This document shows positions 7,515-61,245 of a DNA stretch of 64,000 nt, in pieces. How positions within the stretch are numbered: the stretch's first letter is position 1; each line of letters begins with the position of its first letter. Source of the stretch: Agelas oroides. Taxonomy: Eukaryota > Porifera > Demospongiae > Agelasida > Agelasidae. The position numbers and the translations under genes were made by a program. The notes beneath the pieces are model-generated. The model saw only the letters and a list, made by a program, of their open reading frames with translations, had not been told where the DNA came from and did no database searches. The stretch covers positions 7,348,566-7,412,565 of the forward strand of contig OX422195.1 in NCBI GenBank assembly GCA_949130485.1, written 5' to 3'.

Positions 7515-8037
7515 ATGGCATCCCCACCTGGGCATCCCCCATCACAGCATGAGCCTGTTGGACGCTGGGGTCATTGCAGCGCATTCATCGATGGAAAGCA
7601 GTACACCTATGGAGGCCACTGTGGAGCAGGCGGGTCCCCACCTCTCTCAATGGTGGAGATATTGGACTTAGTAACAGAAAAATGGCAGCAGTTACCAACA
7701 ACTGGAGAGACGCCACCAGGACACATCAATGCATCATGTGCTGCTGTTGGAACTTACCTCTTCCATTTTGGTGGGCATTATGCCAACAAGCACTACAACA
7801 CCATCCATTGTTTGGAAATCAGCAAACTGACTTGGAGAGCGACACCTGCTGTCAACCCCCGACAAGCACCGATACCCAAGAGTGGTGCTGGGATGGTAGT
7901 AATTGGGAATATTCTTATCATATCAGGTGGGGTTGGAGACCTGCCAGACCACCCTGATCCAGACAAATATGTTTCTCATCCAGAGTATGAAGGACGGGGA
8001 TATACAAATGAGGTGCACTGCTTCCATGTTGATTCAA
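7515..8037 (+). CDS. Coding exon 1: Kelch blades 1-3
   Basis: This exon encodes 174 residues starting MASPPGHPPSQ. Three Kelch-type beta strands end in the double glycine: QYTYGG, YLFHFGG and ILIISGG, each followed by a loop and an aromatic strand (EKWQQLP, LTWRATP). The donor is at 8038 (GATTCAA|GTGAGT, phase 1). Its paralogue at 60714-61245 shares the first and last dozen residues but only about half of the interior, although the surrounding noncoding DNA is nearly identical. Confidence 0.9.
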
Positions 8038-11000
8038 GTGAGTTATGCTAATTAATGTTTGCACAAGTACATACAGTTCAGTACCATACATGTATATACA
8101 CTGCACCTCTTGGCTTCATAATGGTTGAGCATTGTATAAGGTAAGAGCTCTTGGCTTCATAATGGTCAGGTTGAGCATTCTATAAGGTAAGAGCTCTTGG
8201 CTTCATAATGGTCAGGTTGAGCATTGTATAAGGTAAGAGCTCTTGGCTTCATAATGGTCAGGTTGAGCATTGTATAAGGTAAGAGCTCTTGGCTTCATAA
8301 TGGTCAGGTTGAGCATTGTATAAGGTAAGAGCTCTTGGCTTCATAATGGTTGAGCATTGTATAAGGTAAGAGCTCTTGGCTTCATAATGGTCAGGTTGAG
8401 CATTGTATAAGGTAGGAGCTCTTGGCTTCATAATGGTTGAGCATTGTATAAGGTAAGAGCTCTTGGCTTCATAATGGTCAGGTTGAGCATTGTATAAGGT
8501 AAGAGCTCTTGGCTTCATAATGGTCAGGTTGAGCATTGTATAAGGTAAGAGCTCTTGGCTTCATAATGGTCAGGTTGAGCATTGTATAAGGTAAGGGCTG
8601 TTCGCTTCATAATGGTCAGGTTGAGCATTGTATAACGTGACTGTTATGATGGTACGTAGGACATCAGATATAGGAGGTTTGTGTTATATCTGTACTTGGT
8701 GAAATGCTTTTCACTCCCCATTCAACCAATTTTATAGCCAACAAAGATATGAATGCATAATTTAACTCGCCTAAAACTCTAAAATCATATTCCAAATTCT
8801 TGTTTCTGCCTTACTTTCAGTTTTCGTGTTAATGAGGTCATATACGTAAGACGTTGGTTGTATGAATACCGGCCGTTTGTGAACAGCTTTTCTCTCCGCA
8901 TTCAACCAATTTATAGCCAACAAAGATATGAATGCACAATTTAGCTCGCCTAAAACTCTAAAATCATAATCTAAATTCTTATTTCTGCCTTACTTTCAGT
9001 TTTCATGTTAAGGGGGTCATATACGTAAGACGTTCATTATATGAGTTCATGATGTCGGTAGTTTGTGAAAATCTTTTCCCTTCCATTCAGCGTATGTTAC
9101 AGCTAACACAGATATGAATGCATATTTTAGCATGCCGTAGACTCTAAACCTGTAATCTAAAGTCAGATTTCTCCCTTACTTTCAGTTTTAGTGTTAGTGG
9201 GGTCATATACGTAGGACGTTGGTTGTAGGAAGTTTGTATCATATCGGTACTTTGTAAAATGTATTTCCCTTCCATTCAGCGTACGTTACACCTACCAAAG
9301 ATGTGAATGCATATTTTAGCACGCCTTAGAGTCTAAACTCGTAATCTAAAGTGATATTTCTCCCTTAGTTTCAGTTTTAGTGTTAGTGGGGTCATATACG
9401 TAGGATGTTGGATATAGGAAGTTTCAGTCAATCGGTAGTTTGTGAAATGCTTTTCCTTTCCATTCAGCGTACATTACAGCTACCAAAGATATGAATTCAT
9501 ATTTTAGCATGCCTTAGACTCTAAACTTGTAATCTAAAGTCAGATTTCTCCCTTAGTTTCAGTTTTAGTGTTAGTGGGGTCATATACGTAGGACGTTGGA
9601 TAAAGGAAGTTTGCGTCCTATTGGTACTTTGTGAAATGCTTTTCCCTTCCATTCAGCGTACGTTACAGCTACCACAAATATGAATGCATATTTTAGCATG
9701 CATTAGACTCTAAACTTGTAATCAAAAGTCAGATTTCTCCCTTAGTTTCAGTTTTAGTGTTAGTGGTGTCATATATAATGATATCGGTAGTTTGTGAAAA
9801 GCTTTTCACTCCCCATTCAGCCAATTTTATAGCCAACAAAGATATGAATGCACAATTTAGCTCGCCTTATACTCTAACTTCATAATCTAAATTCTTGTTT
9901 CGGCCTTACTTTCAGTTTTCGTGTTAATGGGGTCATATATGTAAGACGGTTATATGAGTTCACGATATCGGTAGTTTGTGAAAAGCTTTTCACTCACCAT
10001 TCAACCAATTTTATAGCCAAGAAAGATATGAATGCATAATTGAGCTCGCCTAATACTCTAAAATCATGAACTAAATTTTTGTTTCTGCCTTACTTTCAGT
10101 TTTCGTGTTAACGGGTTCATATATGTAAGACGGTTATATGAGTTCACGATATCGGTAGTTTGTGAAAAGCTTTTCACTCACCATTCAACCAAGTTTATAG
10201 CCAACAAAGATATGAATGCATAATTTAGCTCGCCTAATACTCTAAAATCATAATCTAAATTCTTGTTTCTGCCTTGCTTTCAGTTTTCGTGTTAATGGGG
10301 TCATATACGTAAGACGGTTATATGAGTTCATGATATCGGTAGTTTGTGAAAAGCTTTTCACTCCCCATTCAACCAATTTTATAGCTAACAAAGATATGAA
10401 TGCATAATTTAGCTCGCCTAATACTCTAAAATCATAATCTAAATTCTTGTTTCTGCCTTACTTTCAGTTTTCGTGTTAATCTGGTCATATACGTAAGATG
10501 TTGGTTATATGAGTCGATGATATCGGTAGTTTGTGAAAAGCTTTTCACTCCCCATTCAACCAATTTTATAGCCAACAAAGATATGAATGCATAATTTAGC
10601 TCGCCTAATACTCTAAAATCATAATCTAAATTCTTGTTTCTGCCATGCTTTCAGTTTTCATGTTAATGGGGTCATATATGTAAGACGGTTATATGAGTTC
10701 ACGATATCGGTAGTTTGTGAAAAGCTTTTCACTCACCATTCAACCAATTTTATAGCCAAGAAAGATATGAAAGCATAATTTAGCTCACCTAATACTCTAA
10801 AATCATAATCTAAATTCTTGTTTTTGCCATGCTTTCAGTTTTCATGTTAATGGGGTCATATACGTAAGACGTTGGTTATATGAGTACATGATATCGGTAG
10901 TTTGTGAAAAGCTTTACACTCCCCATTCAACCAATTTTATAGCCAACAAAGATATGAATGCATAATTTAGCTCGCCTAATAATCTAAAATCATAATCTAA

Positions 11001-17000: not shown

Positions 17001-20000
17001 ATACGTAAGACGTTGGTTATATGAGTTCATGATATCGGTAGATTGTGAAAAGCTTTTCACTACCCATTCAACCAATTTTATAGCCAAGAAAGATATGAAT
17101 GCATAAGTTAGCTCGCCTAATACTCTAAAATCATGAACTAAATTCTTGTTTCTGCCTTACTTTCAGTTTTCGTGTTAATGGGTTCATATATGTAAGACGG
17201 TTATATGAGTTGACGATATCGGTAGTTTGTGAAAAGCTTTTCACTCATCATTCAACCAATTTTATAGCCAACAAAGATATGAATGCATAATTTAGCTCGC
17301 CTAATACTCTAAAATCATGATCTAAATTCTTGTTTCTGCCTTACTTTCAGTTTTCGTGTTAATGGGGTCATATATGTAAGACGGTTATATGAGTTCACGA
17401 TATCGGTAGTTTGTTAAAAGCTTTTCACTCACCATTCAACCAATTTTATAGCCAACAAAGATATGAATGCATAATTTAGCTCGCCTAATACTCTAAAATC
17501 ATAATCTAAATTCTTGTTTCTGCCTTGCTTTCAGTTTTCGTGTTAATGGGGTCATATACGTAAGACGGTTATATGAGTTCATGATATCGGTAGTATGTGA
17601 AAAGCTTTTCACTCCCCATTCAACCAATTTTATAGCTAACAAAGATATGAATGCATAATTTAGCTCGCCTAATACTCTAAAATCATAATCTAAATTCTTG
17701 TTTCTGCCTTACTTTCAGTTTTCGTGTTAATCGGGTCACATACGTAAGATGTTGGTTATATGAGTTCATCATGATGTCGGTAGTGTGTGAAAACCTTTTC
17801 ACTCACCATTCAACCAATTTTATAGCCAAGAAAGATATGAATGCATTATTTAGCTCGCCTAATGGTCTAAAATCATAATCTAAATTCTTTTTTATGCCTT
17901 TCTTTCAGTTTTCGTATTAAAGGGGTCATATACGTAAGACGCTGGTTATATGAGTTCAGGATATCGGTAGTTTGTGAAAAGCTTTTCACTCCCCATTCAA
18001 CCAATTTTATAGCCAACAAAGGTATGAATGCATAATTTAGCTCACCTAAAACTCTAAAATCATAATCTAAATCCTTATTTCTGCCTGACTTTCAGTTTTC
18101 GTGTTAATTGGGTCATGTACGTAAGACGGTTATATGAGTGCATGATAGCGGTAGTTTGTGAAAAGCTTTTCACTCCCCATTCAACCAATTTTATAGCCAA
18201 CAAAGATATGAATGCATAATTTAGCTCAACTTATACTCTAAAATCATAATGTAAATTCTTATTTCTGTCTTCCTTTCAGTTTGAGTGTTAATGGGGTCAT
18301 AAACGTAGGACGTTGGATATAGGAAGTTTATGTCATATTGGTACTTTGTAAAATGCTTTTCCCCTCCATTCAGCGTACGTTACAGCTACCACAGATATGA
18401 ATGTATATTTTAGCATGCCTTAGACTCTAAACTTGTAATCTAAAGTCAGATTTCTCCCTTAGTTTCAGTTTTAGTGTTAGTGGTGTCATATACCTAAGAC
18501 GTTGGTTATAGGAAGTTTGTATCATATTTGTGGTACTTTGTGAAATGCAATATCCTAATTTTCTTTCTGTTTTCGTGTTAGTGGGATTACACAGATACGA
18601 ATGTAACACATCAAATTAATGGTCGACTGACTACACAACCAGTATATGCACACAGCAATCAGGAATGTCTCTGACAAGCCCCGGAGCATGTACTGTTCTC
18701 ACTCCGAGTGTGCATTACACAATCAGTACATGTAGTTACAGTACCTCATGTAGGTTATAGATAAAAGAAAGATGGGAATTAAGTTATACACAGTGGAACC
18801 CCTCTTAAAGGACACTCCTGAATTAAGGATATCTTAGTTAATCACGACACCTGACCACACCCCCATTTCATATAAATATGCACTATTGTTCTCCTGAAAT
18901 AAGGACATACACCTTGCTAATCAGGACACATTCTTTGGTCCCAAGGTGTCTGTATTAGAGGGTTTCACTGTAATTACATTTCTATCACATTGAGGAAATT
19001 GGTCTCTGACAGTCATCCATTTTAATGTCTGACATTTTGTTTCTGAGAGGAAATTGCTCTGTGAGCAGCTATGATGAAACCTCGTCTGTGTGTGTACTTC
19101 TCCCCAGGGACCTGGTCATCCCCGGAGATCTCTGGGACTCCTCCACCACCTAGTGAAGGTCACTCATTAACGCGAATCGACCACTCCCGAGCAGTGCAGT
19201 TTGGGGGTGAGCAGCTGGGCAAGCTGGTGCCAAACCATGTCTACCTCCTGGACATGAAGTCATGGGTAAGAGACTATGTGTACATTTGTATGTTGGGTGA
19301 TGAGGGAAAGACTCAAAACATAATTACCTGTGAACTGAAATATGCTAATGCTTACATCAGTTCACATATTGTGTACACACTTACATTTCAACACTTGTTG
19401 GTATATTTTCTGTAAAACTCTGCTGCTTCGTTGTTTGAGCTGTTACGAGCATTTTACATCATAAGTGATCCAACACTTTACCAAGGGGTTTGTTTTCATC
19501 CTAATAAGGTATATAGATTGACTGTCAGAACCTCTGAGTATTGGGGTCAGATATGTCCCTATCTATACCCCCACCAACCATCAGCAGTACGTCACATACC
19601 CCTCGGAGATTTTGATAGTCAATCTACCTTATTGAGATGAAAACAAACCCAATGGTAACAGTATCAAACTAACCTCCTCATAACACCAACATAACATTAC
19701 ATATTTACCACACATAATTATGAGGCTACCTATGGTTATGTAATAATGGGTGGGCTTGTATTGGAAACTTTTGAGCTCTGTTTGAAAGTTGTAGTCATGG
19801 AAACATGGGGTGTGGCTAGTACTTTCATTGTACTGGGTTGTGCAACACCCCCTACCGTCAGGGGGTGAATTGATGGGATACCTATTGAGTGTGCAAGTAT
19901 TACTAGCTAGGTAGTACCATATGCTTCAAGACGTCTTAGTCACAGCTGGGAACATGGTCATTACATTCACCTGAGATTGCTGCATGCGCAGTGGTATCTT

Positions 20001-23000
20001 GTTTGAAATACTCAGAGCAAAAGTACATTTCATGATTTAGTGGGGTAACAGCTGCTGTAATGTTAGGAGTGAACTTACATGTCACAGCTAATCCTAATCT
20101 GGAGTTTAATTTACAGCTAGGTGTCTCAATGTGAGGTCGTGTGTTTGACCCCCAAATCAACAGTAACACTTGGAGGTTAATTCTGATAACCACATCTTCA
20201 GATTTTACAATATGTATGCTTGTATCAGCTTAGAAAGTATTTAGACTCACATACTAGTTAGGTTTTAGAAATTTGTTGATTTAGGGGCAGGTTAGAACGC
20301 CTCTGAAATAAGGAGACTTGGGTCCGGTCCCAATTGTGTCCGGATTGTAGAGGTTCCACTGAATTGGCATTTGTACACAGTGTTTGGAATTTGATAATTA
20401 CAAGTTTGTGGACAGATCTGATTAGTGTTCTCCAATTCCAGAACAGCTGATCCACATGGTGATAATTTTCAGGCAGTCTTCCCTAATTTGTTGCTATGGG
20501 CCTGGTAATGAGGCTGCAGTGTATATGGGCTGTGTGGACAGCTGCTTCTTGTGATTGTTTTCACCCACTGGTTTGCCCCAACCCATTCTCCTACTCATGT
20601 TGTGCTATACTATATAGCAGTTCTCTAGCACGTACTGCACAGTATTGTTCATGTGTCACTGTGTGTGCTCACTGCACATGCGTAGTGTATACTGTAGACT
20701 AAGTAACAGTATTGTGTTACATAGTGTACAGTTGTGTTTTCATTATCATTGTGGCATGTGTTCTTCCATGCATGCAGGAATGGACCAGGGTGGAGGCTAG
20801 TGGGGGTCCCGGCCAGCCCTGGCCTAAGGGTCGATCGTTCCATTCTGCTGTAAGCCTCCATGACAGTGACAGCAGTGCTGCCAACCCGGAACTACTCATC
20901 ACATGGGGACAGGGTGGTGGTGGTGAGGTCCTCAGTGATGGCTGGGTGTTTGGAGTGAATGTGCAGCAGTGGAGGAAGGTGAGGCAAAGTGTCTCCAACA
21001 CATAATTATCATATACACTGTGTACAGTGTAAACAATTACACAACTGGTATAGCTATTATCATTCATGAGTACTTCCTGTCACTAATAACATGTAAGCAC
21101 AATGTTGTTCAATGTTACTTGGAAATATACCACTTAACATGTCTTAGACCCTATGTCCAAAATATAAGGCCAATTATTCCCTTAGTAATTACCACTAAAA
21201 CTGAAAGTATCTGAGAAATCTCACTTTAGATTATGAATTTAGGGTCTAAGGCGTGCTAGGATATGCATTCACATCTGCGGTAGCAGTAATGCTGGACAAT
21301 TGGCATGGGAAAAGCTTTTCACAAAGTACCAATATCACATAAACTTCCGATATCCAATGTCATATGTATATGACCCCACTAACACTAAAACTGAAACTCA
21401 GAGAGAAATCTCACTTTAGATTATCAATTTAGGGTCTAAGGCATGCTAGGATATGTATTCACATCTGCGATAGCAGTAATGCTGGCTAATTGGCATGGGA
21501 AAAGCTTTTCACAAAGTACCGATATCACGTAATTTAAAACTTCCTATATCCAATGTCATATGTATATGACCCCACTAACACTAAAACTGAAACTCAGAGA
21601 GAAATCTCACTTTAGAACATCAATCTAGGGTCTAAGGCATGCTAGGATATGTATTCACATCTGCGATAGCAGTAATGCTGGCCAATTGGCATGGGAAAAG
21701 CTTTTCACAAAGTACCGATATCACGTAATTTAAAACTTCCTATATCCAATGTCATATGTATATGACCCCACTAACACTAAAACTGAAACTAAGGGAGAAA
21801 TCTCACTTTAGATTATGAATTTAGGGTCTAAGGCATGCTAGGATATGTATTCACATCTGCGATAGCAGTAATGCTGGCTAATTGGCATGGGAAAAGCATT
21901 TCACAAAGTACCGAGATCACGTAAACTTTCTATATCCAATGTCATATGTATATGACCCCACTAACACTAAAACTGAAACTAAGGGAGAAATCTCACTTTA
22001 GATTATGAATTTAGGGTCTAAGGCATGCTAGGATATGTATTCACATCTGCGGTAGCAGTAATGCTGGCCAATTGGCATGGGAAAAGCATTTCACAAAGTA
22101 CCGATATCACGTAATTTAAAACTTCTGATATCCAATGTCATATGCATATGACCCCACTAACACTAAAACTGAAACTAAGGGAGAAATCTCACTTTAGATT
22201 ATGAATTTAGGGTCTAAGGCATGCTAGGATATGTATTCACATCTGCGATAGCAGTAATGCTGGCCAATTGGCATGGGAAAAGCATTTCACAAAGTACCGA
22301 TATCACGTAATTTAAAACTTCCGATATCCAATGTCATATGTATATGACCCCACTAACACTAAAACTGAAACTAAGGGAGAAATCTCACTTTAGATTATGA
22401 ATTTAGGGTCTAAGGCATGCTAGGATATGTATTCACATCTGCGGTAGCAGTAATGCTGGCCAATTGGCATGGGAAAAGCTTTTCACAAACTACCGATATG
22501 ATGCAAACTTTATAATTATATATCCAATGCATCATATTTGTAGTTTGTGAAATGCTTTTCCCATGCCAATCACCCGACGTTACTGCTATCGCAGATATGA
22601 ATACATATTTTAGCGTGCCTTAGACCCTAAATTGATAATATAAAGTGAGATTTCTCCCTTTGTTTCAGTTTTAGTATTAGTGGGGTCAAGGACGTTGGAT
22701 ATAGGAAGTTTGCTTCGTATCGGTCCTTTGTGAAATGCTTTTCCCATGCCAATCAGTTGACTTTACTGCTAACACAGACAAGAATGCATATTTTAGCATC
22801 CCTTAGACCCTAAGTTTACATTTTGAGTTTAGGTTTTTCCTCCAGTTTCAATTTCAGTGTTAGTGGGGTCACACACATAGGACGTCAGGTGTAGGGAGTA
22901 TGCCTCATATTCAAAGTTTGTGAAATACTTTTTCCACTCCATTCAACCCACATTACTACTATATCACAGATAAAATTGCATATTTTGCAATGTCTTAGTC

Positions 23001-26000
23001 CCTACATTCATAGCTTGAATAGCTAGTTTGCTAGTTTCACTTTCAGTGTGGCCACATATGTACAGGACATGAGATAAGGGAAGTTTGTGTCAGTTTGGTT
23101 CTTTGTGAAATCCTTTTCCCACTCCAAAGCATTGGTGTCTGTGTATTGGACATAGCATGACTGAATGTACTGTAATCATAGAATGTCCTCCTTGTGTTGC
23201 TCCACATGGCAGCCTCATGTTTTGTCTTACTGTCTGAAATTGTCAAACTCTGCACAAGTGGGTCTACATGGTTTTCAGAGTGCTGTGTGCAAGTTAGAAA
23301 CTCCACAATACAGCAATTAAATATTAGTGAAGTATGGAGAAATGGACCACCAATGCAAGCCCAAAGATATTCATTCACCATTGTAGTTGAGTGTAGTGAC
23401 TAATATTGTGGAAGTGAACTTTGTGTTGACTGCAGACAGTGCAGTGTATACCGTACACACATACATGTGCATATGTAGTGTAGCACTCAACGAGAGTAGA
23501 ACAATGCATGTACTATTATGATCCATTAGAGTTGCAATATTTGTGTTCAATCTGCAGATCATGCTACCTGATAGTCTGAAAGGAAGGTTCTTCCATACTA
23601 CAACAGTGGTGCATCATGACGCCACCCACCAGAGGCTCATCCACTTTGGAGGACTGGATGAAGACCCTGAGGATCCTGGTGATCCAGACACATGGCATCC
23701 AGTGGCAGAGACAACCACTGTGGAGCTAGGTGAGTGGAGTGCACCACATTCACACTGTTGCTATGGTATTCACCTCATTCATTTTGGACACCTGACAGTT
23801 GAGTGTGTGTTGTGGTGAGCACTCTCAGTGTTGACTTCAGTACAAGGAAATGTCAACATCACTGCACACTGGTGTTCATGTACACAATGGTATACATGGA
23901 GTCCTATCAGTCATGGAAATTGTGGTCCAGTGAGAATATTTGTCCAGGAGACAAAACTCCTCCCAAACACCAGTGTGTAGTGATGCTGGGCATCTCCTTG
24001 TACATGTACATGAGGTCAACACTGAGAGTATTCACCACAATAAGATTACTGGTCCACGGTGTACCACAGGAAAAGTAGACTAGCTCCTTTAAAACTGGAG
24101 GTGCCCAGTAGGTCCATACCACCTAGTCTCATGCCCAGACCCCACCCTCTCAGTGAGAATGGTGGGAGGCACACACAGTCTGGACACAAGACTGATACTA
24201 ACCATATACAACCCAGTGGCCTATACACAGGTAGATACAACCCTGTGGGATACAACCTGGGCATGGATACCAGCTAGGTGCATTGTCCACCTCAGGAATA
24301 TTAGTGTTGCTAGGCAACATGGGATGGGGTTCCTGTGTACATAATAACAGCCTGTTGATGTGCTGTAAGTTTACATAAGAACAGCTGTCAGTGATTGTGT
24401 TCTACAAGTTCATGAGGTCAGTGGGCATATATGGTCTAGTACTTACTAGGCTGATATTGTGCTCAACCTATATGCTATGCTATGCTGCACTGCTCCAAAA
24501 ATCTACCTATTGATCAACAAACGTACGCTCCTATAATGCTCATTCACCTGCACCTTAGCTCTCTGCATCACACCTAGCCTCGTACCCAGCGTGGCCTGGG
24601 TATGAGGCTACATCACACCCACCCCTTTTAGGTCAATCAAACAAGTTGGCCGCTCTTTTCTAGTGCCAGTGTATGACAGTGCTTTTACCCTAAGCTTCCT
24701 CTTCCACATTAATTCCAACTGTGTGGAGGCTCGAAGTTTGCTTAGTAAGGACCTTGCTGCCTGACCCTTGTTAACGGGGCTAGTCATCGCCACTACGAAA
24801 TTTATAATCACATGTGACCAACTTTAATTTCCTCAGACAATCTGCCTATTATGCTCGCATTGTGCTCAATGCTTTTTTGCATACCAATTATGTCCATTTT
24901 AATGCCAGCATAATCCACATACTTCCACAACTGATAGACTCATGCATACCTCATTCCCAGACTCTCCTTGCTAAGGAGGATCAGGCAGGGAGAGCCTGGG
25001 AATGAGGCTACATACCTAGCTGATCTAGTACATCAAGAGTGCATAAGAACACTGATACACTAGTACACTTACATCAAGAGTGCATAAGAACACTGATACA
25101 CTAGTACACCTACATCAAGAGTGCATAAGAACACTGATACACTAGTACACTTACATCAAGAGTGCATAAGAACACTGATACACTAGTACACTTACATCAA
25201 GAGTGCATAAGAACACTGGTACACTAGTACACTTACATCAAGAGTGCATAAGAACACTGATACACTAGTACACTTACATCAAGAGTGCATAAGAACACTG
25301 ATACACTAGTACACTCACATCAAGAGTGCATAAGAACACTGACACACTAGTACACTTACATCAAGAGTGCATAAGAACACTGATACACTAGTACACTTAC
25401 GTCAAGAGTGCATAAGAACACTGACACACTAGTACACTTACGTCAAGAGTGCATAAGAACACTGACACACTAGTACACTTACTCAAGAGTGCATAAGAAC
25501 ACTGATACACTAGTACACTTACGTCAAGAGTGCATAAGAACACTGATACACTAGTACACTTACATCAAGAGTGCATAAGAACACTGATACACTAGTACAC
25601 TTACATCAAGAGTGCATAAGAACACTGATACACTAGTACACTTACATCAAGAGTGCATAAGAACACTGATACACTAGTACACTTACATCAAGAGTGCATA
25701 AGAACACTGATACACTAGTACACTTACATCAAGAGTGCATAAGAACACTGATACACTAGTACACTTACATCAAGAGTGCATAAGAACACTGATACACTAG
25801 TACACTTACATCAAGAGTGCATAAGAACACTGATACACTAGTACACTTACATCAAGAGTGCATAAGAACACTGATACACTAGTACACTTACATCAAGAGT
25901 GCATAAGAACACTGATACACTAGTACACTCACATCAAGAGTGCATAAGAACACTGACACACTAGTACACTTACATCAAGAGTGCATAAGAACACTGATAC

Positions 26001-32000: not shown

Positions 32001-35000
32001 TGAGCCCCGTAAGTAGCACAGAGAGTTTTGTGTCCACCATGAACACATTCTATTTACTTCTTGCAAGCAAAAAGCAGTGACATCAGACTACCTTTTGACA
32101 CTGTGTGGATTGAATGTTTGAGTCTACAAGTAACATAACACATAATTGTGTCAATATTTAGCTTTCTGTTTACGCTCCATCTGTACATAACATACCCATC
32201 AAAGTTCTTGATCAATCTGCTCACCGGTCAGGATAGATCATCCCCAGGTAGCTCAAGTCTTTGCTATATTAGGAATGCTTCTGGCTGAGAGAAGGGGGAG
32301 GGCATATTTGGTAAATGTGGTTTTCCTCACCATTCTTGTGCCACCTAAAATGATCTGTGGGACCACTTGTGAATTTCCCATGACAGGTACCACATTGCAC
32401 TGGGTGTACTCTAACTTCTGGACTCAAAAGTTTTTGGCTAGTCAAATTTTCGATGGCAGTTTACTCTCTCCTGGAAGTGATATCCATGTCCGGTGCTGTG
32501 TGCTTATGCAGGACTTTCATGCTTTGGTGTGTTGGGGCCTTTGAATGTCTTTCCTTCCATCCATGAGCCTTGGGGTAGTACTGATTCACTTAATATTTCC
32601 TGCCATCTTGATGCACTTGTGTGCCTAAAAAGCTGTGACCATTTCAAGTTTGCTAAAAGTACATCATTCTCTATATATCCCCAGAGGAGGAGATGCGGCA
32701 CCTTACCATCTGCGATCAAATCATGAGAGAGAAAGGAAAAGTCATGCTTAACGCTGTGCAGTGCATGTTCAGTGGCAATCCACGCGTTGGAAAGTCTACG
32801 TTACTCGCACGGCTCACAGGAATGCGACTTTCCACCATTCACCCTGAGGGTCCTGACACTGCCAAGGAATCGCAAACGGTAGAAGAAGCTGGTCATACAT
32901 GTGTTTCTCCAAGCACAGGCGTATTAAATGCTGTTGTGCGTGTCACCGTCAAGAAGGTTACGATGGTTGTTGCTGCGGTTCTTCAACCTGGCTTGATATG
33001 GGAACGAATCGAGTTTGATGTGGAAGCAATAGCACTGCTAAAGTCTGTCACAAAGGATCGGATTTTTCACTCATCACAGATGAAACAACTGGCCCTGGAG
33101 GGTGCTACAAAGGACGAGAGCACAGACAAAACAGAAATGGCAAGTTCATCCACCTCAACACCTGCTGAGAACGAACCGCAGACAGAGAGATCTGCACGTT
33201 CTGGGCTGCAGCCTTTCTTTCGATTTGGAAAACGCAGAGTCTCAGCTTCCTCAACGTCCACTGTCCCTGGGTTCAAGGCTCCTCTTGATATCTTCAAAGA
33301 GGCTCTGAAAAGTGAGAAGTGGGGAGAGATTGAAGCATTCATCAAGGATTCACTCACCATCTACTTTACAGACACGGGAGGACAGCCTGAATTTCAAGAA
33401 GTGCTACCAGCTCTAATCTCTGGCCCCGCTTTGTTCTTCCTGGTCTTCAAGCTTATCGATGATCTCAACCGGAGGTACCAAGTCCAGTTTGTGTCCCCTT
33501 CCAAGGAGAGCAGGCCTTACGTGTCCAGCTTTACAGTGAAAGAAACTCTCCTTCAGTCACTGGCCAGCATTGCCTCTACATGCAGCTATGCTTCCTACAC
33601 CAGCAAGGAGATGGTTGCAATAAAACCACAGGTAGTCTTGGTTGCCACCCACGAAGACCAAGCAAGTGAGGCACAGATCAGAGCTATACAGAAGGAGCTT
33701 AAAGAAACACTGGAGAAGACCGAGTATTACCGCCAGAATATACTTGTGTTTGCAGCTAAAAATGAGCCAGTATTCACAGTCAATAACATCTCGTCAGACG
33801 GTCGAGATACAGACAAGATCCGAGAGATAGTGGAGCGAATCGCAAAGCACCCCTCCTTTCACATTGAGGTCCCCCTTCCCTGGCTAGTTTCTAGCTTAGC
33901 TTTCAGGCTTTTGCAGGTTCCTGTTATCAGCTATGAGCAGTGTACGAGTATCGCTAGTGAGTGCGGCATTGATACACCAGATGAGCTAAAGGAAGCTTTG
34001 TGGTTTCTCCACCACAAGGTAGGTTTCATCCGCTACTTTGAAAGTGTTCCTGAGTTACGTGATGTGGTCATTCTAGACCCACAGCTCCTCTTTGACAAGA
34101 TCACAGAGCTGATTTCGAGGACTTTCACTTTCGATCCAGTAGTAGTGGGTGACTACGACAATGAACAGTTCAGAAAGACTGGTATGTTCTCATTGCGCAC
34201 TATCGAGGAGCTTACAGCATGGTCTCCTGAATACCTTAACAGTACAAAGCTCATAAAGCTCCTGGAACACTTGCATGTTATTGCACCAATTCAAGATGCA
34301 AGTGGAAAGGTAGAGAAATATTTTATGCCTTGTGTGCTCAGTCATGCAACACCCAAAGCAAGCATTCAAGAGGAGGCTTCCAGCAAAGTACCACCTCTCT
34401 TCATCACCTTCCGATGTGGCTACTGTCCCAAGGGTGTCTTCAGTGCACTAATAGTCCACCTAATGTCGAAGCACAACAATGGTGGAGCAAAGATCACCTG
34501 GCGGTTGAAGGAAGATGAAGTGTCAAGAGACCGAGTAACATTCAAGGTTGGGCGAGAGGACAGTGCTGTGTCTATCACCACACACGCGACTCACCTTGAG
34601 GTTTCAGTAGAGTCTGAAACACGTGTATCAGCCAATCTACTGCAGACTTCCCCTCATGAGATATGTAACTCTATCCGACAGTGTATCGATGAAGGCATAG
34701 TTGCTGTTAGCCAGACTTTACACTACAACTGTGACTCAGCGTTCCACTACAGTTTCTACTGCACCCACCCATCCTGCATTAAACCACATGATCATCTGGC
34801 TGTGTGCCATACTGAAGATCCCATTGTCATGGAATGCAGTAAGAGTAAGCGGTCATGTGACCTTCCTGACAACTATCGCATCTGGTTTGGCCATCCGGTG
34901 AGCAAGTATTGATGCATGACATTAACTGTACATGAATATGGACAATTTCATGAGCAGCATAAGTACACATACTGCAGTAGGTCTAACTAACAATGTCAAT

Positions 35001-42700: not shown

Positions 42701-42713
42701 TACATGTACGGAG

Positions 42714-47243: not shown

Positions 47244-47356
47244 GCGCTCGCTCTAGTGTTGGGGGGGGGGGGGGGGGGACATTATTCACGGAGGGGGGGG
47301 GGACAATATTCACCGGTGAATAATGTCCGGGGGGACATTATTCACTCCAACACCGT

Positions 47357-49720: not shown

Positions 49721-49723
49721 TTT

Positions 49724-50540: not shown

Positions 50541-50652
50541 TTCTTTGTCTAAAGTTGTCCACGACTTGACTGCTAATAAGGAACAGCACTATAATTATAT
50601 GCACGTACCTACAAGGCTTGAGGTAGTTGTGGACAATTTAGACAAAGTTATT
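50541..50652. mobile_element. Short inverted-repeat element, 112 bp
   Basis: CTTTGTCTAAAGTTGTCCAC near 50543 is inverted as GTGGACAATTTAGACAAAG near 50632, around a ~65-bp loop. No coding capacity. Confidence 0.65.
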
Positions 50653-50758
50653 GAAACAAGGGAAAAAGGAGTGCACAGTAAAGCATTGCATGAGAGAATA
50701 TGGTTACACAAAAAAAGCAATTCTTGCCATCGTGGACATCAAAGCTTCTGATCATTAA

Positions 50759-51354: not shown

Positions 51355-51590
51355 TTAATTGTTCACATGTGATCTAAAAGTAAGAAACAGCCCGATGTAT
51401 TATCCTGAGGTCATGTTACTGCACTTTGTGAAAATTAGCAAAGATTCTTCGGCAATGATGGTATTTAGACAAAACTTCATTTGTGGTAAAACATTCCATG
51501 AGAGAATATGGTCGGCCATCTGTGTGATTCAAAATAGCAACATGTCAGTACTTTCAAGTGGTCAGTATTATCACAGTATATCAATACGTG

Positions 51591-52202: not shown

Positions 52203-52246
52203 ACATGTGTACACAGTGTTATCAATATCTGCACAGGGTACATCAT

Positions 52247-52596
52247 GGCCGTAGCAAGCGGTCGGGCTAGTCGGGTTTTGCCCCGCCCACTTTTTTGCAG
52301 ACTAAGCGTGCACATCTGTACATGAAGTCATACGCGTATAAAAACTAGTAAGCCGAACCGTCTCGGAAAACGGCTGCCCATCATCGTGCAAATTTCACTG
52401 ACAAAAAGGTAACGTTGAGTTAGGATTTTCAGCCATTTCAGTTTACTCGATGACCATTCCTTACCCTAACCCTAATCTCCTAGCGTCTAATTTAACAAAA
52501 TTTTCCTTGGGGGAGCATGTCCTCAGACCCCCCTAGATGCTACATGAGGTATATGTAGACTTGGCCCCACCACCTTCAAATAGCTTGCTACAGCCC
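52247..52596. mobile_element. MITE with GGCYGTAGCAAGC ends, about 350 bp
   Basis: Left GGCCGTAGCAAGC and right GCTTGCTACAGCCC are inverted. The interior GGGGGAGCATGTCCTCAGAC resembles the 51591 element. It ends 19 bp before the second duplication copy starts. Confidence 0.65.
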
Positions 52597-55500
52597 TGTA
52601 CATGTATCAATATGTGATACACTGAAACTGAAATATTGTCCCAACTCTAGTGACAACACAAGGAATGTTCCGTGGAACTTGTGCAATCTCACGAGTGAAC
52701 TTTCGTTGTTTGTGTTGACCACACAATTAGCTGGCCTCATGTTGAAACCTTGGCTTGGAAGTACAGGTGTATGTAGCCACCAGTTTGGGGAGTAGTGGTT
52801 GTAGTCTCATGCCCAGACCACACCCTCTCATGAGGAAAAGGGTCTAGTAACACAAGCCTGAATTCCTGGGCTCACTCCAGACTTTGAGAGTGACCAATGA
52901 GTGGCATTTATTGGAATAAAGCACTTGGTACTCATACAGCTTTACAAATATAAAGTCTGAGCACTCCTATAAGCCCAAGGATTCACGGGCTTGTGTCACC
53001 AGACCCTTTCCTCTGTGGGTTGGGTCTGGGCATGAGACTAGTGTTATTGTTTAAGCTTAAAAAATAATTAGGTTTTGACCTTTGGATCATCATAAAATCC
53101 TGAAATTGAATTTCTTACTTAAAATTAGAACTTACCTTGCATAAGAATAATATGTGGAGACGCGCAGTCCTGCTTCCACAAGTAAGTGTATAGCTGGTTT
53201 TTCCTAGAATTGTGTACACACCTTGTCAAACTCGGTAACCAATGAAGGCAATACCAAGCTTCCTTTCGCTGGTTCGATGTATGGTCTGGAGTCTAAGCTA
53301 CCTAAGTGTATAGCTGTGTTTTCCTCAAATTGTGTCCGTACCTCGTCAAAAATCTGCAGCCGACAAAGGTAGTACCAAGCATCCTTCGCTACCTAGGTAG
53401 GTGTACAGCTGGCTTTTCCTTGAATTGTGTACATACCTCGTCAAACTCTGCAACCAATGAAGGCTGCACCAAGCGTAGCTTGGACTTGTAGGAAGGCCAC
53501 GAAGGTTGGCTTCAGTCATATGCACCAAGTAAGAGCAGCCTATGGCTGAATGGCTCATTAAACTTTCTCATTCTCATTCTTACGCTAAATTGGATTAGTG
53601 TAAATAAATTAAGACTCCAGCTTACGTAGAATTGGATTCATGATATATTTCTGGAATTGAATTTCTTATGTAAAATTGAATCATACGTAGTATTAGAATA
53701 ATTGGGGCGAGCATGTGCGAGCCCCACACTAGTGAGTTGAATTGCAAATTTTTCATATATATCTGATGTATGTCGTTCCGTATGTTTTTGGACGCTGTAA
53801 TTTAACGCGGTAGCCGTGGGCCACATGCTGACTGTAAGATTTTCGTACAACTTGGCAGCCAGCTTATCCTTAGGAAGCTAGCTCCAAGGTGAGCTTGAAA
53901 GATGACGCTTATGAAAGACAGCCAGGAAGGACAGTTGGACATCGGAATTGGCAGCTGGAGCGTGAGTACCTACCGTATGTCTAAGTATACAAGCACTAAC
54001 AGTTGTGTAGACAGGCTTAACACAGAAGGCGGCATGCAGAGACCCTGCTTTACAGCTGATGCATGGCGACTTCCATCTGCCGGCCTTTCTCTAAGATGCC
54101 CCAAGTAAGGACTATGCATGACAAGCCAGGTTGTGTTCAGACTTAGTCTACAGTTAGCCAGAGTAGCTGCTTAGGTAGAACAAATGGCTCCATTGTGCTA
54201 TTCCTTCTAACAAGCTCACCTGTGTAGATGGTTTTCAGTGTCTGCCCCAGGGGGTATTGACATATTGAGATATCTCTGTACTCTCTTGTAAATTGTTTAG
54301 TAAATTTCCCGTACCCCTCCGTAAACTACTGTCTGTTCTAGGAGTGTCAAGCGAAAATGTTTGTCCCAGGGTAGACATATAGCACTGTCATCCATAGGTG
54401 GTACCCTTGTTAAATGGAACCACCCATTGTATTGTGCCACCCCATGACAAGCTACTCCCTCTGCAATTGTGACAGTTTTCTCTAAGCTGTTAAACACTTT
54501 TGCAGTCAGTAGAGTGACAAACTTGTTGAGCTACATGCCACGGCTTGTGTGCTGTGATCTGATACTTCACTGGTAAAGCCTTGGCTGTGTAACAGTCCAA
54601 TGCCGCTTGCTCACGCTCGTCCCCCCATGTTCTACATTCGCCTAGTTTAGGAAATGTTTGAGTGCAGTCCATTCTTCCTGCAGGTTGCTTGAGGTGACGA
54701 CCCATCACATTGTGGGCGTAGTGTCAGTGACCCCAGCAATCAGATGCTGTACAGGATAGAGGTGAGCAGACATGTCGTATTTATGTGTGTGGGTGGGGGG
54801 TGGGCTTGGGGAGAGGGGAGGGGTGAAGAGAGGGCCAGCTAGATTAAAGTTCAACTTTAAAGTGTGTGTGTGAAAGTGTTGTTGAAGACTGTATTGTTGT
54901 GATGTGATGGGACACAAGTTCTCAGTATGAGTTCATTACTGTCTTGTCCCACAGTAATGAGTGAAACTGGACTGCGACATATGACGAGGGGTTTCCTGAC
55001 AATACCACTAACTTGGCACCGGACTGCAGGTGGGTGCTTATGTCCGAAGTAACTCATTTCCCTCTCCTGCCACCCTCTCCTCCCCACTCCCCCTCTCTTT
55101 TCCCTCTGTGTCTCCATCCCACTTCCTTTCTCTCGCCCTCCCCATTTCTCTCCATCTACTTCCTCCCACCTGTCATTGTCCATCAGGTCCAATTACGATC
55201 CATAATGCTGGGCAACCAGATTGTACACAAACAATTGGTTTACTGCAGTAGGTGTGGATATACAAGTTATTTTGCTGTACACACAAAAACGTAAACAAAT
55301 TGACACAGTTTACTCGACAAATCTGTTTCTAGTGCACCAGATGCTGTGAGAACCTCATTTGCATGATTGAAACATCACGTCTGATACCTCCCTCCCTCTC
55401 CCTCCCCCTCCCTCGCCCTCTCTCCTCCCCGTCTCCTTCCTCCGTCTTCCTCCTCCTTGTTGTGAATGAGCTGGTGTGTGCCTGTCTTACCCCATAGATC

Positions 55501-57495
55501 TGTGTTTCCAGACAATCATAAAAACTGAAGTGTGACATACCAGACATTGACCTGGTGCTGGTAAGTGGAGTGTATGTGTGTTTATGTTAGGACTCCCTCT
55601 CACCGTCTCCTTCTCCTCCCTTCCCTTTTGCCCCTCTGCTCACTCTTCTCTTCCCTCCCTCCTCCTCTTTCCTCCCTCCACCTCTTCCCTCCCTCCTCCT
55701 CTTCCCTCCCTCTTCCTCTTCCCTCCCTCCTCCTCTTCCCTCCCTCCTCCTCTTCCCTCCCTCCACCTCTTCCCTCCTTCCTCCTCTTCCCTCTCTCCCT
55801 CCTCTCTCCTCCCTCCCTCCTTCTCTTCCTTTCACTTTATCTCCTCTCACTATTCACCTCATGGTAGTGTAGAGTACAGTCCTTCCATGTGAAATCATGA
55901 TCTCTGACATCTCTCCCTGTGAACCTAATGGTGTTCCTGTTGAGTGCACTGTCAGTAGTGCAATCATATCAAGCTAAAATAGTACTAAGGGCCAGCCTGA
56001 GGAAGTACGTACATACACTCCACTACTCACCCTAGCAGCTTGAATCAGAATATGGTGCTCTTTCATTGGAGGGGAAGAGGAGGGAGTCCTCTGGTTAGTA
56101 TGGTGTATTTCCATTACCACATCTCTTTGTCTCTCTCTCTCCTGGCTCTACCACTCCAGCCAAATTGCACTGTTTGGAGGACCCAGCAGATCAAGCTCAG
56201 CACTAGGCCACTGTTTGGAGGACCCAGCAGATCAAGCTCAGGACTAGGCCACTGTTTGGAGGACCCAGCAGATCAAGCTCAGCACTAGGCCACTGTTTGG
56301 AGGACCCAGCAGATCAAGCTCAGGACTAGGCCACTGTTTGGAGGACCCAGCAGATCAAGCTCAGGACTAGGCCAGCAAGTGGCCCACAATGGAGTATAGC
56401 CTCAACATTAGATTGTCTATCTCTCTTGTTTGCATATTTCATTGTGTGCTTACATACTGCATCTTTCGTCTCTGAAACGAGCCACTTTGCAATGATTACA
56501 TACCAAACATCTGCATGCCCCACCTTCTACTGTGGACCCGTTGCAGTCAGGACCCCAGACCCTTCTGACTGGGTGAGGACTGGGGACCACTATACCTGGT
56601 GCACGTGATCAGCAGCCTATTTACTCTGCATGCAGACTGATATTAAGTACCTCTGCTCCGTGCTGTTATGATCCTGCCCTGCCCCCAGCATCCTATTCAC
56701 TCTGCATGCAGACTGTAAGTACATTAACTGAAAACAGTGCCTCTGCTCGGCTATTGACGTACAGTCCTCAAGCACTATAGTACTTGCGTGCCCCGCCCCC
56801 AAGTACCACAGCACTTGCGTGCTCCGCCCCCCACTCGTGTCAAGTGATCTAAAGAGGTAATTACCCAGCCACTCCCCCGCATAGTTGCGGAAGTTGAGAA
56901 TAGAGGCTCTACAGTATCTATTACTGTAGTTAACAAGAACTATATCGTCTATCTGCGTTGGAGAAGTTTGGAGAAAACAATTTGGGCGTGGCACAGATTG
57001 GCACAGATTGTAACCCCCCAAGGGTAAGTTGTAATATCAGCAAACAGTAACCACTCCCATGTAGACAGCTCTCCAGCTCAGTACAAGTTGCGAGCATGTA
57101 AAATGAGCAGTTGCTGCCTCGCGGGGAGGAGCAGTATAATATCTACACAGTCACCATCAGCAGGCTGGCACCATAGACAACAGAACAAAAATACCATTCT
57201 CTTATCAATACAGGCACCTATGAGGACAATGCATAGTTCATAGTGTTCCTCCTTGAGATGTAGTCTCACAAGCCAGACCGTTTTTGTTCCTCGGTGCTGA
57301 TCACTTCCAGTATCAGCAAGCAGTTGGCGCTGAGAGACAGAGAGGGTGTGGCTTGTGAGACTACTGGGGTTGGTTGATTTTCATACTGGGGTCAGTGTGT
57401 GGCCCAACACCACCATGTCACACCACAGCAATACCTAATAATCATAACTGTAGTCCTCATTAGGAAATCTACAGCTAGATTCCTGCCGTACCCAA

Positions 57496-58005
57496 GGAAT
57501 GAGGGTAACATGAAAACATACAAATTGTTGAGTATGTGTAAACCATTTTAGTTTCTGTGGTATACATCCATCCCTTTTGAATATTGTCTGGGGAGGTATA
57601 GGTAAGTGCATGGTACATTAATTGCAGTTGTGCTGGAATTTTACAATTGGATTTACAGGGGTATAGCCATGAGTTAAAAGTGTGTGTGTGTGGGCAGCGG
57701 GGGCTTAATTTTGAGAGGGCACTCAGTGCACAAAGCTCGCAGAAAACGAAATTTTTTAATTAAATTTACAGCTCAAATTATAGTGATTTGAGCATGTCAC
57801 TGTTATCTTAGTGACTGCAAACCAACCCGCGGGTGGCGGAGAGCTCAGTAAAGTATGTGTCAATGAAGTGCATCAATGTATAAACACATTAAATTTTGAT
57901 TTTGTGTAAATGAATATATTCATTCATAAGTCCCATAAGCCCCAAAATCTGGGGTGGGGGTGGGGAGCTGAAGCCCCCAAAGCCCCCCCCCCCCCCCCCC
58001 CCGTT
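57496..58005 (+). other. ~510-bp segment present only in the second duplication copy
   Basis: The copies agree up to TGCCGTACCCAA (4945 and 57497) and again from TTGTCTAC (4963 and 58004). The extra DNA has a GGGGGCTT...AAGCCCCC inverse motif near its ends and a run of about 19 C at 57984-58002, so it may be a decayed insertion; deletion from the first copy is the alternative. Confidence 0.7.
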
Positions 58006-58385
58006 GTCTACCTGATTTAGCTACTGGACTGTGCAGACTAGTTTCAGGTGTATGCAAGAAAGGAGATGATAGGTTGGGTGTGTGCCATAAGAATAGAACC
58101 ATGAATACACATTCCAGTTACCATGGTTACAAACAATGAACAAGACATGATTCTGTTTACAACTGCACATGTCCTGCATATCACTATTGAATACCATCAG
58201 AAGAGATTGGAAGATAAGGATGTTAATGTGTACATGGTACATTAACTGCTTTTAATAAACAAATTTGTGCTGGAATTTTCTTTACAAATTCCATGACTGC
58301 ATCTACTTACAATAGCATCTACAAGAATGTTAGCCAATCATTGCAAGGGCAGTTGGTACACCCTCTCAAAAAACTTTACCTCCCA

Positions 58386-59830
58386 ATTGTAACCTCAGCA
58401 GTAGCAAGGTTGTCAGTCAGTATACAGTCCAGTCGACTGTGACTAGCTCTTGGAGCATCCACTGACACTGTACACAGTACGACACTAGCTAGCTAGCTCC
58501 AACTAGGTAATAAAACAAACCTGAAATTAATGAGTTCTTAATTGTAACCTCAGCAGTAGCAAGGTTGTCAGTAAGTATACAGTCCAGTCGACTGTGGCTG
58601 ACTCTTGGAGCATCCACTGACACTGTACACAGTACGACACTAGCTAGCTAGCTCCAACTAGGTAATAAAACAAACCTGAAATTAATGAGTTCTTAATTGT
58701 AACCTCAGCAGTAGCAAGGTTGTCAGTCAGTATACAGTCCAGTCGACTGTGGCTGACTCTTGGAGCATCCACTGACACTGTACACAGTACGACACTAGCT
58801 AGCTAGCTCCAACTAGGTAATAAAACAAACCTGAAATTAATGAGTTCTTAATTGTAACCTCAGCAGTAGCAAGGTTGTCAGTCAGTATACAGTCCAGTCG
58901 ACTGTGGCTGACTCTTGGAGCATCCACTGACACTGTACACAGTACGACACTAGCTAGCTAGCTCCAACTAGGTAATAAAACAAACCTGAAATTAATGAGT
59001 TCTTAATTGTAACCTCAGCAGTAGCAAGGTTGTCAGTAAGTATACAGTCCAGTCGACTGTGGCTGACTCTTGGAGCATCCACTGACACTGTACACAGTAC
59101 GACACTAGCTAGCTAGCTCCAACTAGGTAATAAAACAAACCTGAAATTAATGAGTTCTTAATTGTAACCTCAGCAGTAGCAAGGTTGTCAGTAAGTATAC
59201 AGTCCAGTCGACTGTGACTAGCTCTTGGAGCATCCACTGACACTGTACACAGTACGACACTAGCTAGCTAGCTCCAGCTAGGTAATAAAACAAACCTGAA
59301 ATTAATAAGTTCTTAATTGTAACCTCAGCAGTAGCAAGGTTGTCAGTCAGTATACAGTCCAGTCGACTGTGACTGACTCTTGGAGCATCCACTGACACTG
59401 TACACAGTACGACACTAGCTAGCTAGCTCCAACAAGGTAATAAAACAAACCTGAAATTAATGAGTTCTTAATTGTAACCTCAGCAGTAGCAAGGTTGTCA
59501 GTAACTATACAGTCCAGTCGACTGTGGCTGGCTCTTGGAGCATCCACTGACACTGTACACAGTACGACACTAGCCAGCTAGCTCCAACTAGGTAATAAAA
59601 CAAACCTGAAATTAATGAGTTCTTAATTGTAACCTCAGCAGTAGCAAGGTTGTCAGTAACTATACAGTCCAGTCGACTGTGGCTGGCTCTTGGAGCATCC
59701 ACTGACACTGTACACAGTACGACACTAGCCAGCTAGCTCCAACTAGGTAATAAAACAAACCTGAAATTAATGAGTTCTTAATTGTAGCAGTAGCAAGGTT
59801 GTCAGTAAGTATACAGTAGCAAGGTTGTCA
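58386..59830 (+). repeat. ~156-bp minisatellite, about nine units
   Basis: The unit contains AATTGTAACCTCAGCAGTAG, ATACAGTCCAGTCGACTGTG, ACACTGTACACAGTACGACA, CTAGCTAGCTAGCTCC and AATAAAACAAACCTGAAATT. It occupies the place of the unrelated 22-bp minisatellite in the first copy. CAGTCGACTG is a palindrome. Confidence 0.95.
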
Positions 59831-60713
59831 GTATGGCATACACAAATGTGTCTGTGCGTGTGTTTTCAACTGAAATGAAAGATGCTACACACACAAACAT
59901 GGTACATGCAAATACATACACACTCATGTATGAAATTTCCTGAAAAAGTGTTTAATTAGAACGGTACCAGGAAGTATTTCCACCTTTGACCTTTGTGTGG
60001 CATGTATTTTGGCTTGTAGATGGACTAATACTAATGTAGGTCACTTGTCTCCCTGATTTGGTAGTCAAGGAGTGTATCAGGTCACAAGTTGTCAGTCGCT
60101 TAATCTCACCAGATCTGGAGGATGTAGAGAGAACTGTCGTGCACTCTCAGCCTTACCTTGCATCAGTGTGAACACTTGAGCTTTAGCCAACTCACCAGTT
60201 GAAACCACTGATGGTGGAGAATGTCCCATTTTCCTCAGGCTCACTTTTGTATACGTTCCCACCACAAACTAAAGCTGGAGAGACAGTGGGTAGACCGGGG
60301 ACTGAGGCCACCACAGAAGTGTTATTACACTGAATGTGTCCTCTGACCCACAATGTGTTGATAATGAGTGTTCACCTGTCTATTGTTCAGACATGTAGAG
60401 TAGGTTTAGTTTTCTCTGTGAGAATGGGAGAACAGTCTGTTCTAGCTGGAGAGACAGTGGGTAGACCGGGACGGAGGCCACCACAGAAGTGTTATTACAC
60501 TGAATGTGTCCTCTGACCCACAATGTGTTGATAATGAGTGTTCACCTGTCTATTGTTCAGACATGTAGAGTAGGTTTAGTTTTCTCTGTGAGAATGGGAG
60601 AACAGTCTGTTCTAGAAACACAGTGGTATATTTCTCACAAAGTGGTAGCTAGTGGTCTCCACGAATTGAGAGCTTGTGTCTTGTACATTTACCTCTCTTG
60701 TGCAGGGTGAGCC

Positions 60714-61245
60714 ATGGCATCCCCACCTGGGCTGTCTCCATCACAATATGAGCCTGTTGGATGCTGGAGTCATTGCAGTGCAATTGTCGATGGAAAGCAG
60801 TACACTTATGGAGGCTACTGTGGAGCAGGTGGGTCCCCAACTCTCACGGCAGTTGACATATTTGATCTTAAAACAGAATTGTGGCAGCAGACACCAACGT
60901 CGGGTGAGCCCCCTCAAGGATATTTGGGGGGATCATGTGCTGTGATTGGGGCACACCTCTTCCATTTTGGTGGTAGAGATGAGTCAGGGAGGTACTACAA
61001 CACCATCCATCAGTTTGATACGATGGTACTAAGATGGAACCCAGTAAACGCCACCAACATTCAGGAAGGTCCAGCAGCCAAGATCAGTGCTGGAATGCTA
61101 TCATACAGTCACAACCTCCTCGTGACATCTGGTGGCTATGGATATGCTCAAGATAAACATCTCCCAGGTAGAGAATATGTTCCTGATCCAGATCGTCAAG
61201 GCTATGAGTGGACAAACGAAGTGCACTGCTTCCATGTTGATTCAA
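60714..61245 (+). CDS. Coding exon 1 of a second Kelch protein (gene continues beyond the window)
   Basis: The same GAGCCATGG start after a GTGCAG acceptor, and the same donor GATTCAA|GTGAGT in phase 1, as the first copy. It encodes 177 residues with three Kelch blades: QYTYGG, HLFHFGG and LLVTSGG. The first residues (MASPPG) and the last (NEVHCFHVDSS) match the paralogue, while roughly half the interior differs, including a longer loop (GYAQDKHLPGREYVPDPDRQ). By analogy a Roc-COR-Death portion should follow downstream, beyond position 64000; that is inference. Confidence 0.85.

Follow-up and report, generated by a model that had tools for sequence, protein, structure and literature searches.

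The window analysed here, a 64,000-nucleotide stretch of the genome of the sponge Agelas oroides (C13:7348566-7412565), holds two members of a predicted cytosolic receptor family, in which a six-bladed Kelch propeller of KLHDC2 type would be encoded by four exons. Both genes are read on the plus strand, gene 1 being copy C and gene 2 copy D of the family. In gene 1, exon 1 (7515..8037; ATG at 7515, donor GT at 8038), recognised by its open reading frame (ORF) and donor, carries the first three Kelch blades (PF24681, 4.6e-25) with an interior of the type that we call class I, and is followed by exon 2 with blade 4 (19108..19265; splice sites in phase, homologues in copies A, B, D, E, and F), exon 3 with blade 5 (20778..20978), and exon 4 with blade 6 (23558..23729). 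Further downstream lie the ROC-COR GTPase exon (32685..34897), a predicted small linker exon that is open and in phase (35071..35122), a second possible linker exon, likewise a prediction, whose frame stays open with one donor and also if it is skipped (35256..35309), and the Death-domain exon (37122..37367). Gene 2 is represented in the window by its exon 1 (60714..61245, donor at 61246), which has a class II interior (PF24681, 3.7e-19), its exons 2-4 being located beyond the window. The 5' flanks of the two genes, 1..7514 and 52616..60713, are counterparts and mostly alike outside their repeat arrays.

The GTPase exon of gene 1 matches COR-A (PF16095) at 43.8 bits (3.2e-11; cut-off 35.3), indicating that a COR domain is present, while its Roc match (PF08477) of 16.8 bits stays below the cut-off of 27; the motifs GNPRVGKST, DTGGQ, and THED were assigned by eye to G1, G3, and G4. 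The Death-domain match (PF00531) reaches 33.6 bits (4.5e-8; cut-off 22.6). That all these exons form one Kelch-ROC-COR-Death gene is predicted from splice phases and from their kept order. Over its 1,206 residues the model of copy C meets no stop, and since it ends at a donor, its last exon is missing. By eye, without a predictor, no signal peptide was seen at the protein start, which favors a cytosolic sensor over a surface receptor, and no Pfam match to NACHT, NB-ARC, or WD40 was obtained at E 0.1 when ten translations, seven of which belong to these genes, were scanned. Moreover, the full-length model has no full-length public protein, since 47 of its 49 matches cover 59-64% of it (the GTPase part) and the remaining two match the Kelch region weakly. 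When contigs of bacterial and archaeal genomes were scanned with the GTPase exon, 15 pattern matches came up, of which none is a relative.

Searches of the 259 Mb assembly (141 contigs) revealed six copies, every one on C13, that have the four Kelch exons complete and in order. Their first exons start at C13:7274335 (A), C13:7313775 (B), C13:7356080 (C), C13:7409279 (D), C13:6286002 (E), and C13:4366204 (F, minus strand); A-D lie within 135 kb, and E and F at distances of about 1 Mb and 3 Mb. A GTPase exon was found downstream in A, B, C, E, and F, which share the exon order Kelch-GTPase-Death, and Death copies adjoin the GTPase exon in A, B, E, and F. A seventh locus found by DNA search (C13:6332198-6333972) holds a partial GTPase exon with an inverted Death fragment that contains a stop; the whole stretch (C13:6332165-6334188) is a decayed family member. 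Elsewhere, dense tandem COR-A matches on the minus strand of C20 (6403558-6704734) belong to a different ROCO subfamily, and many remoter Kelch exons, of about 30-38% identity, lie at C7:8.3-9.6 Mb, possibly a second diversified family. When 240 external proteins were compared, exon 1 of A, C, D, and E showed at most 88% identity to any of them; two external proteins, P0175 (exon 1) and P0005 (GTPase), are identical to copy F, and both are listed with a contig of 1,039,716 bases. If that record comes from the same species, copy F would be stable while the array turns over.

Exon divergence, flanking DNA and recombination

In an anchored alignment, exon 1 of copies C and D differs at 159 of 523 positions (30.4%), with 9 further gap columns, whereas most of the upstream flank differs by 1.5-4%: 41/2764 mismatches (1.5%) between 1-2765 and 52616-55387, 11/699 (1.6%, 93 gap columns) at 4157-4948, 15/431 (3.5%) at 6292-6728, and 4/98 at 7417-7514. 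The original prediction that the exon interiors are far more diverged than their flanks was thus borne out in sliding windows. Its accompanying statement, that some 7.5 kb upstream is almost identical outside repeat arrays (in gene 1, 3036-3323, 5543-6282, and 6729-7416), holds for these four segments but not for 4949-5365, which is only 88.9% identical to its counterpart. The arrays themselves differ, with a 22-bp unit repeated 33 times at 5543-6282 in gene 1 and a 155-bp unit repeated 9 times at 58385-59817 in gene 2. In steps of 30 bp, divergence is 4/30 at the ATG, 17/30 at 7841-7870, and 14/30 at 7985-8014, and it drops around the donor to 0/30 at 8015-8044 and 1/29 at 8045-8073 (1/59 in all). 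After the donor, 9 of 66 bases differ over 8038-8103, and the near-identical stretch lasts about 35-60 bases, shorter than the roughly 85 that had been claimed; this start of intron 1 (8038..8094) is alike in copies A-E, with 0-6 mismatches in 59-60 bases over their pairs. By the Nei-Gojobori method (NG86), exon 1 gave a synonymous divergence (dS) of 0.64 and a nonsynonymous divergence (dN) of 0.35, a ratio of 0.54, and dS in windows of up to 30 codons ranged from 0.27 to 1.38. Since synonymous sites are equally raised, positive selection alone cannot explain the contrast and was rejected as its sole cause.

The pattern recurs in all four Kelch exons when the ten pairs among A-E are pooled (150-base flanks, 60 bases after exon 1), so that the noted reversal, noncoding DNA being more conserved than the exon it surrounds, is more than chance. 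For exon 1, the proportions of synonymous (pS) and nonsynonymous (pN) differences are 0.374 and 0.205, against 0.039 in the upstream and 0.059 in the downstream flank; pS is 0.088 for exon 2 (flanks 0.008 and 0.023), 0.119 for exon 3 (0.020 and 0.097), and 0.227 for exon 4 (0.015 and 0.020), the pair B-C contributing zeros for exons 1 and 2 to these values. The downstream figure of 0.097 for exon 3 is due to the pairs that involve copy B, the one with a differing intron downstream of that exon.

Copy F served as a control. Against it, the introns differ by 9-37% overall: by 35-37/149 bases before and 21-23/142-144 after exon 2, by 12-15/109-141 before and 24-39/144-145 after exon 3, and by 38-49/121-134 before and 18-21/147 after exon 4, and the flank before exon 1 differs by 58-60/149. 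Consequently, the low intron divergence within A-E is not intrinsic, and these introns have been made alike. The dS of exon 2 against F (0.05-0.21) is low against its introns, that is, the usual order returns for this exon. For exon 4, dS within A-E (0.17-0.41) is about as large as to F (0.20-0.57), and for exon 1 it is 0.64-0.98 across the two A-E classes versus 0.54-0.84 to F; exon 3, with 0.09-0.16 within A-E, smaller than the 0.54-0.71 to F, has thus been partly homogenised too.

Recombination is evident among the copies. In exon 1 of C, D, E, and A (103 informative sites, five third-pattern sites left out), 9 of 10 sites to the left of about 7577-7617 group CD|EA and 93 of 93 to the right group CE|DA (mosaic p 5e-5 by shuffling), and the downstream intron follows the right-hand grouping, C with E and A with D. 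Copies B and C do not differ at all in 3,522 bp around exon 1 (C13:7312275-7315796 and 7354580-7358101) and show 5 differences in the roughly 3,200 bases between 17610 and the beginning of exon 3, exon 2 included (9537-17609 left out); this near identity stops between 20697 and 20810, with 21 differing positions, gaps included, at 20810-20931 inside exon 3, 2 in the next 140 bases, and strong differences past 21072. The GTPase exons of B and C are 88% alike, that of C being closest to F (90%), and the stretch before it is 92% identical to F, the match to B covering only 91 bases at 74%. The array genes are therefore composites. Furthermore, an external exon-1 set was assembled from 90%-clustered representatives, of which 120 of 135 proteins were taken and 8 outgroup members (P0232 to P0238, P0240) dropped, leaving 112, or 107 for the association test after 5 incomplete ones were left out. 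In these 107, the association between variable sites weakens the farther apart they lie (r -0.36, p 5e-4), and all four combinations turn up for every one of the 10 pairings among five block states, set by simple patterns with unassigned states put aside, the smallest cell holding one sequence. The collection of paralogues and the search for breakpoints therefore yielded six copies, the B-C break at or inside exon 3, and the exon 1 mosaic. The predicted recombination stands, and the accompanying idea that exon interiors had been replaced is better put more fully: flanks and introns of A-E were made alike while the exons kept older differences, as the much greater divergence of the introns from F indicates.

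The noncoding DNA around these exons holds several further features. Related satellite arrays with units of about 187-196 bp occupy 8921-18510 and 61315-63688, in intron 1 of both genes, and lie inverted at 21193-22499 after exon 3 of gene 1; they are a possible substrate for exchange. The predicted intron after Kelch exon 4 contains a 41-bp tandem repeat of 48 copies (25029-27006) and, before the GTPase exon, a Myb/SANT-like ORF (28475-28978, plus strand) and a DDE_Tnp_4 transposase ORF (29913-31181, minus strand), which together are probably a PIF/Harbinger element (28475-31181). Between the genes, ORF fragments on the minus strand at 46083-47252 resemble a retroelement integrase in their motif.

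Variable residues and the KLHDC2 pocket

An AlphaFold2 model of exon 1 (predicted local distance difference test score 90.4) shows three four-stranded blades. Among the 112 external proteins, the eleven most variable positions (at least 2.56 bits: 88, 123, 71, 161, 121, 93, 72, 19, 142, 115, and 90) all fall in d-a or b-c connections, counting 161, the first residue of strand c3, and with 115 placed between strands d2 and a3 in a stretch left unclassified when entropy was tabulated by stretch. Mean entropy by stretch is 1.64 bits in d-a, 1.38 in a-b, 1.21 in b-c, 1.21 in c-d, and 0.81-1.14 in strands. Twelve loop positions, picked by motif though after the entropy table had been seen, average 2.24 bits against 1.04 elsewhere (p 2e-5). 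The loop combinations are distinct in 106 of 106 external proteins, which is partly by construction because the set was clustered at 90%.

In the sponge's own DNA, 24 loop codons of exons 1-4 show a pN of 0.432 versus 0.141 in the other 324 (permutation p 5e-5) and a pN/pS of 1.23 versus 0.48 (permutation p 0.009), these permutations treating codons as exchangeable; b-c codons alone reach a pN/pS of 2.08. In this context, the diversifying selection that had been proposed is supported for d-a and b-c codons taken together, and is not supported as the cause of the whole contrast, given the raised synonymous divergence and the overall ratio of 0.54.

The fold of exon 1 resembles KLHDC2, with a TM-score by query length of 0.74-0.80, and the first 28 of the 50 Foldseek matches shown are KLHDC2 or KLHDC3. 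By sequence, exons 2-4 have KLHDC2 as best match (1.3e-10), designed propellers and LZTR1 match exon 1 about as well, and PF24681 is matched by all 76 members of our set A2. Counterparts of KLHDC2 residues were counted by hand from HMMER alignments, the numbering being shifted by 12, which gives the right type of residue wherever a position has been named in print. Positions 124, 140, 161, and 163 of exon 1 correspond to Lys147, Tyr163, Arg189, and Trp191, the exon 2 residue after FGG to Arg236, and the exon 3 pair after GR to Ser269-Trp270; one position of exon 4 aligns to Trp321, which has a role in the pocket.

In KLHDC2, the degron end is recognized by Arg236, Arg241, and Ser269, which bind its carboxylate, and a compound that occupies this pocket touches Tyr163, Trp191, Trp270, and Lys147 (PMC11377542); for Arg189, docking predicts a contact (PMC12169847). 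The eight clear pocket counterparts are more variable than other codons, with a pN of 0.451 versus 0.154 (p 2e-4) and a pN/pS of 1.52 versus 0.51 (p 0.049); this set omits Arg241, which aligns ambiguously and whose earlier position was chosen after variation had been seen. With the residue aligned to Arg241, nine codons gave a pN of 0.417 versus 0.154 (p 1e-4) and a pN/pS of 1.73 (p 0.031). The four exon 1 pocket positions average 1.99 bits in the external proteins (p 0.03), position 163 being nearly always W or Y. Where KLHDC2 has Arg236, five copies carry E, Q, or Y; the residue aligned to Arg241 is V in 5 of 5 copies, and the one aligned to Ser269 is S in 4 of 6. Since the carboxylate-binding arginines are not kept, reading of a C-terminal glycine or di-glycine is not implied. 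Compared with the C-degron receptors KLHDC2 and KLHDC3, the variable positions thus fall on degron-pocket positions, and the gene model differs in that no ubiquitin-ligase adaptor part was seen in it.

Proposed mechanism and rival explanations

We consider it probable that these genes belong to a cytosolic sensor family that is kept diverse against gene conversion and is wired to Death-domain signaling. Gene conversion and unequal exchange would keep much of the flanks and introns of A-E alike, and the Kelch exons would escape because selection removes products in which ligand-binding loops have been homogenised and retains new loop combinations that arise through short exchanges and point changes. 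Such an escape would leave old synonymous and amino-acid differences within noncoding DNA that looks young. A divergence peak in an exon between introns of low divergence is indeed described as a sign of selection opposing conversion, as in exon 5 of the red/green opsins (PMC3924837). If the exons form one transcript, the diverse face may bind variable non-self or altered-self ligands, and a ligand held there might switch the ROC-COR unit and gather Death domains in a GTPase-dependent signal.

Several observations weigh against this proposal. The control with F is not clean, because the dS of exon 3 to F (0.54-0.71) exceeds the divergence of its introns (9-17%, and 27% downstream for the pair BF) and exon 4 is about equally diverged from F as its introns. 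Upstream of exon 1, copy E is alike over only about 200 bases, after which repeats differ. The exon 1 pairs have a dN/dS of 0.36-0.56, a rough figure when counted on overlapping pairs of mosaic sequences, and one indicating that most of the exon is under constraint; only five or six copies of this genome contribute DNA, their pairs are not independent, and mosaics violate the tree assumption of dN/dS. In A, B, E, F, and X, the GTPase exon also differs from that of C by 10-16%, and the intron preceding it shows no close likeness when C is compared with A or B, so that escape from homogenisation is not limited to the Kelch exons. The predicted GTPase-Death tail is supported for gene 1 only, as neither the COR-A search nor the DNA search found a GTPase exon for copy D, and downstream of it, among 150 of 792 candidates scored, there are two Death matches on the opposite strand with 41-44% identity. 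With regard to the residues, the next five variable positions (80, 81, 104, 106, and 133; 2.51-2.55 bits) sit at or close to the opposite face, the b-c connections as whole stretches are no more variable than the c-d ones, and d-a codons alone have a pN/pS of only 0.92.

Alternatively, whole interiors of exon 1 may have been copied from divergent members by non-allelic exchange, without selection for diversity. The two interior classes with a dS of 0.64-0.98 between them, the downstream intron that goes with the class (C and E, A and D), and the four-combination mosaics would agree with such replacement, which nevertheless leaves unexplained the islands in all four Kelch exons, small ones included, and the concentration of amino-acid change in loop codons; we regard it as unlikely. 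We think it quite improbable that the array joins alleles or chimeric copies and that the contrast is allelic divergence. The identity of B and C over 3,522 bp would suit such an artefact, and a flank difference of 1.5-4% is within the range of strong heterozygosity, but copies differ in exons 3 and 4, in their GTPase and Death exons, and in spacing, C and D differ in their repeat arrays, and even for alleles an exon dS far above the flank divergence would need the same explanation. A pure haplotype artefact was judged unlikely on these differences between copies.

It is more doubtful still that the flanks are conserved by function, as promoter, 5' untranslated region, or splicing signals, around an exon that is weakly constrained. 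The first 60 intron bases after exon 1 are alike even between C and F (3/51), although not between E and F (20/60); however, the likeness of C and D extends over several kilobases, comparison with copy F shows 24-40% difference in the flank preceding exon 1 and in the introns preceding exons 2 and 4, and the exons have a dN/dS below 1 with open frames. The comparison with F is what led us to judge functional conservation unlikely. Hardly credible, in our view, is a mutational process aimed at the exon, either hypermutation or a templated retroelement. Changes in loop codons often involve two or three bases, which speaks for it, but synonymous divergence is raised along the whole interior and W, M, E, and K are among the residues seen at the variable positions, a pattern that an adenine-limited templated process would not give.

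Known systems and meaning for the sponge

Three known systems resemble the predicted family. Brown-algal LRR-ROCO genes likewise join a ROC-COR GTPase to a recognition region made of repeats; their exons are reported to be shuffled and to be under diversifying selection, and they have been proposed as immune receptors. They carry leucine-rich repeats (LRR) instead of Kelch, one per 72-bp exon, and no other domain combination was found there (PMC11378527), whereas the sponge genes have three blades in a single exon, a predicted Death domain, and introns that resemble each other from gene to gene. The fungal HET-D/HET-E genes of the HNWD family have a propeller, an NTPase domain, and exchange between genes, with positively selected residues in pairs, at the d-a loop and the b-c turn of the top face; they differ by their WD40 repeats with internal homogenisation and their NACHT and HET domains (PMC1805685), and the sponge genes have KLHDC2-type Kelch blades unlike one another, ROC-COR, and Death. 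In the red/green opsins, too, gene conversion has kept introns alike on both sides of a divergent exon, exon 5, but that case involves one exon and two functional sites (PMC3924837), compared with four exons, several copies, and many variants here. A source on sponges lists Kelch-motif genes and Death-domain genes separately, in the part consulted (PMC6208332), and no description of a diversified Kelch-ROCO-Death family was found in the literature searched, whose scope excluded subscription papers and most preprints.

A role in immunity or self-recognition is plausible from the anatomy and evolution of these genes. More tentatively, and with doubts that outweigh our confidence, a C-degron pocket of KLHDC2 type may have evolved into an open-ended repertoire of readers for peptide tails, with own pocket residues in each copy, short exchanges, and ROC-COR coupled to Death, as an animal counterpart of the fungal HNWD genes in which tail-less members such as copy D might act as sequence donors. 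A receptor family of the predicted kind would be an independent invention, in an animal, of the design that joins propeller, NTPase, and cell death, made from Kelch, ROC-COR, and Death parts, and the variable positions offer a concrete list of residues for ligand-binding tests. With at least 132 COR-A matches in the genome, such families could be a large part of the recognition system of this organism.

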